Source: Opitutus sp. GAS368 (GTDB taxonomy: Bacteria > Verrucomicrobiota > Verrucomicrobiia > Opitutales > Opitutaceae). From it: a DNA stretch of 64,000 nt. Shown here one piece after another: positions 30,194 to 41,691 of the stretch; position 1 is the first letter of the stretch, and every line of letters starts with the position of its first letter. The stretch is taken from the NCBI GenBank assembly GCA_945903465.1, contig CAMDOF010000015.1, positions 1 through 64,000 of the forward strand, read 5' to 3'. The translations under genes were made by a program, and so were the position numbers. Below the pieces are notes generated by a model. It did not search any database and was not told where the DNA came from. It worked only from the letters and a program-made list of their open reading frames with translations.

Positions 30194-31770
30194 CTAAATT
30201 TTCAAGGCCCTCTTCGGTATCCGCTTTACCACAACAAAACGTGCGCGGAAAAGGTCTTCCAGCGCGGCTCGAACCTCCACGGGAATTCGCTCCACCAGCT
30301 CTGCCAGAGGCGGCATTTCCTTGCTTTCCGACTCCTCCGCCTCCGGGACCAGTGAGCCGACGTTCGCACCGGCTACGAGTTCCCCTCGACTACGCGCATC
30401 AGCTAGAAAAGCGGACTCCCCCGCTTCGTCGGGGCAGGGCCCGTCCCCCCGCTCCCCGGGCGCCGCTGCGCGCGATCGCTCCGGGAGCGGCGTCACCGCC
30501 AGCCTCGGCGCCGGCTCCAAGCCAACGACCACGATCGCTCCCGCCTCCGTAAACCGTGAAGCCGTCACCCTCATCGCGGCGGCAACGCTCAACCGCGCCG
30601 CTAACCGATCAATTCGATCTTTTTTTTTTCGCTAGCAACCTCGGCGTGACCCGCTTCATCCGACAACGCCGCCAGTTCCTTAATCAAGCTATCAATCGCT
30701 CGTGACCGGCTTGCATCGACCGCTTTTAGCAAGGTAACTTCGAAATTAATTCGTTCCGCCAAACCCAACTTCACGCTGCCCTCGCCCTCCCTCAGTCCGT
30801 CTAGCAAGCGCGTAATCTGCTCCGTCGTCATCGGCAAACCTCCCAGTTCAGCGCTCTTCCCCCCTTTCGCAATCGCGTCAAGCAAGGCAACGCGCACCAG
30901 CGCCTGTAAATCGATCAAGAGGCGCACCAAGTCCCGCCCCGCACCATCGCACTCATCAACGATCGCAATAATTTTTTGGTGGTCGCCCGCGGCCAAGGCT
31001 CCCGCCAGCGCCGCGATCTTTTCACCTGCGACCAAACCGTACACGTCCAACACGTCCGGCTCCGTAATCTCATTACCACAAAACGAAATCATCTGGTCCA
31101 GAATCGACTGAGCATCCCGCATCCCGCCATCCGCCAATCGCGCAATACAAGCGAGCGCCTCCGCCGATACCCTGATGCCCTCTTCTCCTGCAATTTTCTG
31201 CAACCGTTCAACAATCAGCGGCGCAGGAATCGGCTTCAGATCAAAGCGCTGGCAGCGCGATATGATTGTCGGGAGAACTTTCTGCGGATCGGTCGTCGCA
31301 AAAACAAATTTTACGTGCGCCGGCGGTTCCTCTAACGTCTTCAACAACGCATTAAACGCCGCGGCCGATAACATGTGCACTTCATCGATGATGTAGATCT
31401 TAAACTTACCCTGCGCCGGCGCATACCTCACCGTCTCCCGCAAGTCGCGCACCTGATCCACGCCGTTGTTGGAGGCACCATCGATTTCGATCACATCAAG
31501 GTGCGAGCCCTCAGCGATCGCCTGACACGCCGGATCCTTCACATCAAAATCCGCCTTCGGACCGCCGGTACAATTGAGCGCCTTCGCGAAAATCCGCGCC
31601 GTCGAAGTCTTGCCCGTCCCGCGCGGCCCCACAAACAAATACGCGTGCGCTATCCGCTGCCTCGTAATCGCATTCCTCAGCGTGCGCACAACATGGTCCT
31701 GGCCCACAACGTCATCGAATGTCTGGGGGCGCCACTTGCGCGCAATAACTTGGTAAGCGGAGGACAACAA
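30194..31770 (-). CDS. dnaX: DNA polymerase III tau/gamma with -1 frameshift site
   Basis: The zero frame (31770-30601) gives 389 residues: Walker [10 protein letters not shown] (48-56), IIDEVHML sensor region (Asp129-Glu130) and a clamp-loader core ending E-K-K-K-I-E-L-I-G. The zinc module keeps only Cys67 and Cys82 of the usual four. Just before the end lies a run of ten A residues (30629-30620, minus strand). A -1 shift there opens a second frame continuing to 30194, adding about 141 residues (Pro/Ala-rich linker, then a helical [18 protein letters not shown] end) to give a tau-like protein of about 525. Thus gamma would come from the zero frame and tau from slippage, as reported for Thermus dnaX. 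A homopolymer sequencing error is the alternative. Confidence 0.88.
30620..30629 (-). promoter_or_regulatory. A10 slippery tract in dnaX
   Basis: Read on the minus strand the codons are GAA AAA AAA AAG, followed four codons later by an in-frame TAG at 30603. The -1 frame has no stop from here to 30194. A GC-rich hairpin (GCGGC ... GCCGC) lies about 20-40 bases downstream and could favour slippage. Confidence 0.7.
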
Positions 31771-31881
31771 CCAAGGTTCAAAGCTGAAAATCGCCCGACC
31801 GCCAGCAGGAATTCACATCACCGCAGGGATCACGCTTTTCACGTGGCGGTTCCAGCGCACTGCGCCGCTTCGATAAAAAAA

Positions 31882-31980
31882 GTGGCCAGGCACTCCACGG
31901 CACTAGGAGGACGTCGTTACCGTTGCTACCTTCCGGTCCTGGCGGAGTTCACGCGCCTGCCCATGCATGGCGCCTGGCCG
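31882..31980 (-). ncRNA. ffs: Small signal recognition particle RNA (4.5S-type)
   Basis: The minus strand contains the conserved apical domain, with CCAGGACCGGAAGGTAGCAA (the GGAA tetraloop and asymmetric bulge) and the 3' side ending GTGCCGTGGAGTGCCTGGCC. The extreme ends GGCCAGGCG and GTGCCTGGCC pair to close the hairpin, giving a molecule of about 99 nucleotides with no Alu domain. Seven T residues follow on the minus strand (31881-31875), serving as the terminator. It lies directly upstream of dnaX, a common bacterial location. The RNA binds Ffh to target membrane proteins. Confidence 0.93.
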
Positions 31981-40917: not shown

Positions 40918-41691
40918 TCACGGAGCAGCTATTTTTGGCACAGTAAAGGCCTCCGCGCTCACCAATGGGTTGGATTCAATTTTTAACACCTTGGTTTGCT
41001 GGGAAACATTCCCGTCAACTGAAACCGTCACCTTGTGCGCGAGGAGCACCCCGTCGACCGGGCGGAAATCCTCATAGTGAGTCACCACCTGTAACGTGCG
41101 ACCGCCCGCACTTGTCCGCTGCTCCAACCGCATCGCGATAAAGTAGGTTTCATCATCAATCAGCAGCGTATACGTGTCCGATAACTTGTGGGTGACGAGC
41201 ACGCGCAAAAACTTCCTTCCGTCCACCACCACTTCACCGGCAGAATCAAAGACAAATCCGCGCGCCGCGCCTCCAACCAGAGGATCGTCGAATTCCGCAT
41301 CCGCCACAAACTTTCTTGCCACCACTGCTTCCATCAAACGGGGGCGGAGCGGTCGACTCGCCGAGTCCAGTTCCCAGGCTGGGTCTTGACCATCGTTACC
41401 CTGAATCAACGTGCGGTCGGTGCTGTGGGTTTCGAGTCGAAGCCTTGCCGGCCGCGCGGCCGTCATCGTAAAGCGGACCACCTTGCCCCCCGCGTACACC
41501 TGCCCAACCGCGCGCAGCGCTGCCAACGCCTCGACCCGCGTCTTCCCACCGATCGCCTCAAGGTGAATCTTGATCAAATCATCCATCGGGTCGCCCCGAA
41601 CACTCGCCAGACCTAGGAGAAAAAAAAACACCAGACAATGACCAACCCACGGCCGCACCCAACAATAAGGGAAAAGCCGACCTGTGGTCAT
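40918..41691 (-). CDS. LolA-like outer-membrane lipoprotein carrier fold protein
   Basis: Encodes 257 residues from the ATG at 41691 (41703 is an alternative). The signal peptide core is CLVFFFLLGLASVRG. The rest is beta-rich: IHLEAIGGKTRVEALAALRA, VVRFTMTAARPARLRLE, TYTLLIDDETYFIAMRLEQR and HYEDFRPVDGVLLAHKVTV. This is the pattern of LolA/MucB/RseB-like half-barrels that hold acyl chains or sense lipoproteins. The specific function is unknown. It is divergent from the metallophosphoesterase gene. Confidence 0.65.
   Translation of the reverse strand: MTTGRLFPYCWVRPWVGHCLVFFFLLGLASVRGDPMDDLIKIHLEAIGGKTRVEALAALRAVGQVYAGGKVVRFTMTAARPARLRLETHSTDRTLIQGNDGQDPAWELDSASRPLRPRLMEAVVARKFVADAEFDDPLVGGAARGFVFDSAGEVVVDGRKFLRVLVTHKLSDTYTLLIDDETYFIAMRLEQRTSAGGRTLQVVTHYEDFRPVDGVLLAHKVTVSVDGNVSQQTKVLKIESNPLVSAEAFTVPKIAAP

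Follow-up and report, generated by a model that had tools for sequence, protein, structure and literature searches.

A conserved A-run, a double stop trap and a tau reading frame found in all three phases in dnaX of an Opitutales-like order of Verrucomicrobiota

No property of a gene is normally more rigid than its reading frame. The dnaX gene on the minus strand of a 64,000-nucleotide stretch of the draft genome of Opitutus sp. GAS368 (the window; assembly of 8.16 Mb in 343 contigs, completeness 93%) raises the question of how the long tau product could be made from a gene whose frame closes just past a homopolymer, and of what is kept constant in such a gene if the frame is not. The junction reads ...GCT AGC GAA AAA AAA AAG ATC GAA TTG ATC GGT TAG, with exactly ten A's in the run and the zero-frame TAG five codons past AAG, and both frames that do not carry the tau-like extension hit a stop at once after the run (TGA and TAG; Table 1). 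The preliminary description, made from the letters alone, had reported an A10 slippery tract in dnaX, a zero frame ending five codons after GAA AAA AAA AAG and a −1 frame that runs uninterrupted from the tract to 30194 and adds 141 residues, and all three readings hold.

The identity of the gene is clear from NCBIfam TIGR02397 (dnaX_nterm, E 9e-127), and the gamma-like product also matches the Pfam families DNA_pol3_delta2, DNAX_ATPase_lid and DNA_pol3_gamma3, so that an AAA+ ATPase with the DnaX lid and domain III is present (TIGR02397 9e-127, PF22608, PF12169). This locus is the only full-length dnaX match in the genome. Its start codon is uncertain, with TTG TTG at 31770 and no clear Shine-Dalgarno sequence by eye; the TTG at 31770 is a mechanical assignment from which the 389 amino acids are counted. 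The nearest named records among those listed, which may not include that of the window itself, are Opitutae/Opitutaceae metagenome bins and, for cultured strains, Cephaloticoccus primus, whose dnaX (L067) likewise has tau in the −1 frame, and the window dnaX is an Opitutaceae-like Verrucomicrobiota gene.

Table 1. Features of the dnaX locus in the window (positions on the forward strand).
Feature	Position	Strand	Basis
dnaX zero frame, gamma-like, 389 aa (clamp-loader ATPase, lid, domain III)	30601..31770	-	ORF and Pfam/NCBIfam
A10 slippery run, codons GAA AAA AAA AAG (T10 on the plus strand)	30620..30629	-	Sequence and conservation
Tau-like extension, −1 frame, 141 codons and stop; conserved C-terminal module at its end	30194..30619	-	ORF and HMM
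TAG closing the zero frame; ends 19 nt past the A run	30601..30603	-	Sequence
TGA closing the +1 frame; ends 11 nt past the A run	30609..30611	-	Sequence
ffs (small SRP RNA), lying just upstream of dnaX; given for context	31881..31979	-	Rfam RF00169, 65 bits

The A10 run in dnaX is not simply a matter of chance. Within its 8.16 Mb, the genome holds 62 A9 windows on both strands, that is, 59 runs of A9 or longer, and just 3 of these 59, dnaX included, reach A10 or more. The longest stop-to-stop frames touching the other two A10 runs span 102 and 51 codons; the longest touching the dnaX run spans 403 codons, 394 of them ahead of the run, and the −1 frame stays open for 141 codons past it. A separate ORF filter that demanded at least 15 codons on both sides in one frame was applied to 58 of the 59 runs (one was dropped because its flanks were identical to those of another), and it too found no long frame at the two other A10 runs; it also returned nothing for dnaX, since no single dnaX frame spans 15 codons on both sides of the run. 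In the window and its close relatives, 64 loci in all, the N-terminal part of dnaX has a mean G+C content of 65% and encodes lysine by 855 AAG versus 305 AAA codons, and no further stretch of A or T in their 275,711 nt is longer than 8. A number of other A9 or T9 runs in the genome sit within long open frames (on contigs 4, 6 and others; L252, L253, L264 and more), so A9 is tolerated in this genome, and these runs could be candidates for further slippage sites. The window itself has a second A9 at 41620-41628 on the plus strand (L259), which is covered by an antisense frame and by no sense-strand frame of at least 120 codons with 15 codons on each side.

What the −1 frame encodes past the run has the marks of a protein. 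Over the last 42 codons in 64 close loci of the −1 class, differences at the three codon positions are 0.37/0.28/0.59; the third position is the most variable, so the extension evolves as translated sequence does. Its conservation is centred on approximately the last 40 residues, with, in close relatives, the ten residues after the run conserved as well, and its length across the order is about 80-220 codons. Searches of Pfam and NCBIfam found no match for the window tail (30197-30619). Its last 20 residues are similar to the ends of single-ORF tau proteins from other Verrucomicrobiota, but a profile comparison with 27 such ends gave a 1% probability, which is not significant. An AlphaFold model of the tail (mean pLDDT 69, pTM 0.25) contains confident helices just after the run and near the C-terminus, the latter in agreement with the ordered-looking helical end noted in the preliminary description, together with a less confident helix at 65-77; the remainder is poorly modelled. 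We therefore use "tau" for a product defined by position and conservation, with polymerase binding as a putative property, and on sequence grounds the polymerase-binding part of tau in this order seems to have been replaced or to have strongly diverged.

Loci of dnaX were gathered by searching relatives, the order and genome contigs, with the stretches around listed matches added. The order genomes surveyed are those among the better matches listed, 269 order genomes having had a match in total; the dnaX query found no match in 4 of 273 order genomes (G048, G087, G116 and G180, of which G116 is a single contig). We examined 234 loci and set aside 20 (11 duplicates, 7 on contigs ending before the junction, L108 with stops in its N-terminal part and L120 without an N-terminal match), which left 214; 148 of these have a family code within the same order, the genome of the window counted in. 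Runs of A8 to A13 occur at the gamma/tau junction in 143 of these 148 genomes and in 20 of 22 families, with 141 of the 148 at A9 or more; the five order genomes without A8 or more are L156, L177, L178, L201 and L205. Four further order genomes had been dropped as duplicates of kept named records (L074, L076, L079, L080), with A10 in three of them; L080 has no run, yet its tau module lies in the zero frame. Some near-exceptions stand out: L156 (family f21) has A6 only with tau still in the −1 frame, and in genus g18 of family f8 tau is in the zero frame both in L205, which has C7 and A5, and in L206, which has A8. These may use other shift sites or may have lost slippage. In the family of the window (f1), 49 of 61 loci share both the A10 and the class, meaning the phase of the tau frame, and 60 of 61 share the class. 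Outside the order and within the same class of Verrucomicrobiota, 77 of 80 genomes had a full-length dnaX match, 75 of these with 528 or more codons in the open frame and two, at 444 and 454 codons, near contig ends; these uninterrupted frames suggest that the split gene belongs to the order.

The frame that carries tau is a different matter. We sought the C-terminal tau module in all three frames with an HMM seeded by the window and close −1 relatives and then iterated, which matched none of 2109 shuffled ORFs. In 157 loci with A8 or more, the module lies in the −1 frame in 105, in the zero frame in 32 and in the +1 frame in 20; it was not found in four loci with such a run, L112, L127, L132 (outside the order) and L154 (family f20). 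The slippery run is conserved and the tau frame is not. The preliminary description had proposed comparing the length of the run and the conservation of the −1 frame in relatives.

Some families are uniform (f11, f3 and f4 are all −1, f22 is all +1 and f5 is all zero), and six genera are mixed in class (g29, g91, g68, g55, g58 and g42), the second class in most of these mixed genera being represented by a single draft genome. In g29, g91 and g68, A9 goes with the zero frame and one A10 in each genus with the +1 frame; in g55, A10 is +1 (5 loci) and A11 is −1 (one locus); g58 holds all three classes, with A10 as +1 (5) or zero (2) and A11 as −1 (1); and in g42, A10 is −1 (2) and A12 is zero (1). 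One extra A thus pairs with a move from zero to +1 (A9 to A10; g29, g91, g68) or from +1 to −1 (A10 to A11; g55, g58). In one same-genus pair, L238 and L241, the 60-nt flanks are 95% identical upstream and 72% downstream, and the two loci differ by one A and in class. A FastTree phylogeny of 158 labelled rows requires at least 20 class changes, against a mean of 49 and a minimum of 44 in 100 shuffles, and a quick IQ-TREE phylogeny of 95 rows, a third of whose forks are weak, gives 19; in both trees L154 was labelled zero frame by hand, on account of a long open zero frame in which the module was not found. Many of the surveyed genomes are metagenome bins in which the length of a homopolymer may be miscounted, and single odd genomes inside a genus may be such run miscounts. 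Every class, however, includes genomes of one or two contigs (G029 and G030 for −1, G128 and G067 for +1, G055 for zero), and these genomes, together with the differences between whole families, mean that misassembly cannot account for the classes as such.

If messages of all phases are made from the run, then both non-tau phases should end fast. Of the 155 classified loci whose run is A9 or longer, 140 have a stop in each non-tau frame within 30 nt past the run, comprising 100 of 105 in the −1 class, 24 of 30 in the zero class and 16 of 20 in the +1 class; at random control positions the same double stop was found in 7.5% of draws from the N-terminal part and 7.8% from the tau tail (3100 draws each). 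In the remaining 15 of the 155, one or both non-tau frames stay open beyond 30 nt, and in eight loci a stop comes more than 36 nt past the run (L140, L141, L148, L151, L197, L237, L239, L241). These counts come from related loci and hence are not independent events, yet the stop words differ among the three classes: 43 of 64 close −1 loci have CTGATTGA, some +1 loci TAACTGA or TAGCTGA, and some zero-frame loci GTAGCTGA. The window lacks the zero-frame TGA typical of its close relatives and has a TAG four codons further on instead, and it retains the TGA of the +1 frame. An A8 or A11 genome with one continuous frame had been put forward in the preliminary description as evidence against slippage, an argument that loses its force here, as relatives with tau in the zero frame retain the run and, in the 24 of 30 given above, the stops.

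We propose that RNA polymerase slips on the A10 run, which would yield dnaX mRNAs with varying numbers of A's. Messages with 10+3n A's would be translated to the TAG, producing gamma (domains I-III); those with 11+3n A's would enter the −1 frame and produce tau with its 141-residue extension, and those of the third phase would end at the TGA and also produce a gamma-like protein. Selection would act on the slippery run and on the stop trap in the two non-tau frames with no particular frame favoured, and because selection would be indifferent to frame, a single A added to or lost from the DNA would only alter which message makes tau. We regard it as probable that polymerase slippage at the A10 yields both gamma and tau mRNAs and that the run and the stop traps, not the frame, are selected; slippage at the level of transcription and two protein products are what we infer from these patterns, with the roles of gamma and tau taken by analogy from E. 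coli and Thermus. The preliminary description had likewise assigned gamma to the zero frame and tau to slippage, which is consistent with the gamma-like product, with the conserved tau-like extension in the −1 frame and with slippage as the likely cause. For the order as a whole, we consider it likely that dnaX is frame-free, slippage at a conserved A9-A13 run being so efficient that the DNA frame of tau is nearly neutral, and that this frame has switched at least about 20 times, taking in all three phases and often by way of single-A indels, while selection keeps the run and the double stop trap.

Transcriptional slippage must be weighed foremost against programmed −1 ribosomal frameshifting at A AAA AAG (or A AAA AAA/AAC), which would make tau here in the way that E. 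coli makes gamma, and which we judge improbable. The shift heptamer of E. coli, A AAA AAG, is present in phase in the window and in 77 of the 105 −1 loci, with A AAA AAC in 20, so ribosomal shifting may contribute. Shine-Dalgarno-like motifs are enriched 25-3 nt upstream relative to N-terminal control stretches, both as 4-mers (50 of 136 versus 15.6%) and as 5-mers (24 of 136 versus 7.3%), and in the window a GAGG ends 9 nt ahead of the run; a scan of such motifs upstream of the run across the set found no fixed spacing. A 7-bp hairpin is possible shortly past the run in the window but does not exceed its shuffles (z −0.81, and 0.01 when the folded segment is shifted by 5 nt), and folding upstream of the run gives z −1.23. 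Across the −1 class, folding of the 50 nt downstream has a mean z of −0.45 (n=102) versus −0.03, −0.10 and −0.20 in controls, a slight excess; the zero class stands at about −0.15, and 13 +1 loci that were folded give −0.94 and −1.17 on the two sides of the run. With motifs that lack a fixed spacing and a structure excess that is only slight, hairpin or Shine-Dalgarno-like stimulators gave no clear signal.

More serious for a ribosomal programme is that relatives have tau in the +1 and zero frames at the same run, since the +1 class is out of reach for a ribosomal −1 site. Such a site also needs a zero-frame stop only, which leaves the conserved +1-frame stop unexplained, and the A9 or longer run of 141 of the 148 order genomes exceeds what a heptamer needs. 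The genome encodes both tRNA-Lys CTT and tRNA-Lys TTT, and the presence of the CTT species counts against E. coli-type shifting; the available text of Atkins et al. (2016, PMC5009743) suggests the two-tRNA-Lys state as a possible reason why Thermus slips rather than frameshifts. According to a rule given in the accessible part of Antonov et al. (2013, PMC3711429), shifting in both directions among orthologues is a sign of transcriptional realignment, and by this rule the occurrence of tau orthologues in both shift directions argues for realignment here. Transcriptional slippage is thus likely the better-fitting reading, and −1 frameshifting may still be at work at the window gene.

Sliding of ribosomes on poly(A), which would place them in all three frames, would serve the three tau phases equally well, and E. 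coli ribosomes do slide along runs of AAA codons (Koutmou et al. 2015, PMC4363877, as far as its available text goes). In the E. coli cell-free system described in that text, A11 gave a robust truncated product and A9 and A10 gave little; 148 of the 155 classified runs of A9 or more are A9 or A10, precisely the lengths that gave little product, which makes sliding a very unlikely source of tau in this order. We attach hardly any credence to phase variation, in which DNA replication slippage would toggle tau on and off: run length and tau phase do vary between species of one genus, but switching tau off completely would be implausible should this product be as necessary as it is elsewhere among bacteria, stop traps in two frames have no role in such a switch, and the constancy of run and class in family f1 speaks against it. 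That this one gene was misassembled, as the 343-contig draft might invite one to think, or that its tau frame has decayed is scarcely credible given the same architecture in 60 of 61 family loci, one-contig genomes included, and the codon-position bias of the −1 frame.

Recoding of dnaX has been described in several bacteria. In the accessible text of Antonov et al. (2013, PMC3711429), 17 dnaX genes need recoding for tau, all by −1 and nine with A10, transcriptional realignment is proposed, and the data set includes four Verrucomicrobia species; Opitutaceae may already be within it. As in the window, the zero frame of those genes stops just past the poly-A and tau lies in the −1 frame, the reversed polarity. 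That set, as available, contains −1 genes only, whereas this order also has tau in the +1 and zero frames. The window gene alone is one more member of the Antonov type, and it is the order-wide pattern that makes the variant. The bacterial IS transposases of the same paper, in the text available, include orthologues that shift +1 or −1 at homopolymers; these are mobile genes and not genes of core replication.

In Thermus thermophilus and E. coli, tau is the zero-frame product of a single ORF and gamma is the recoded one (Atkins et al. 2016, PMC5009743; Baranov et al. 2005, PMC1088944; both in their available text), and one nucleotide can reverse these roles in dnaX (Atkins et al. 2016, in the same text). 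Thermus thermophilus dnaX, as described there, resembles the window in having a run, of nine A's, early stops in both other frames and two products (predicted ones in the window). The DNA frame of the Thermus gene encodes tau, whereas that of the window encodes gamma; in 32 loci with A8 or more the zero frame carries tau, as in Thermus. The "Thermus-like polarity" assigned to this gene in the preliminary description is accordingly wrong, because in Thermus it is the zero frame that encodes tau. E. coli dnaX has in common with the window A AAA AAG and tau and gamma from one gene (here as predicted products); in the window polarity is reversed, the run is longer and there are two tRNA-Lys genes (a single UUU in the E. 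coli type), and across the set here there is no clear hairpin or fixed-spacing Shine-Dalgarno-like motif. In Blochmannia dnaX (PMC3017870, available text), a poly-A indel also breaks the frame and restoration of tau by transcriptional slippage is proposed, but the lesion lies in the tau-only part, downstream of the shift site, and in reduced genomes, whereas the junction here is conserved and has stop traps. In the literature covered, which is a part of the whole, there is no order-wide dnaX set with tau in all three phases, and a frame change in this group appears only via Antonov et al. (2013) and Atkins et al. (2016). As far as that coverage extends, what is new here is a tau frame that wanders through three phases while the slippery run and the stops persist.

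The maintenance of stop traps in both non-tau frames suggests that gamma is needed. Gene-calling software that follows one frame would, in the −1 and +1 classes, list the gamma ORF alone and so would miss tau. With runs of A8 to A13, three phases and many switches between them, the order offers a natural series for testing the efficiency of slippage and the tau:gamma ratio that is required. A core replication gene seems to have been freed from frame dependence across an order of bacteria, a dependence apparently lost because the population of transcripts samples all frames.
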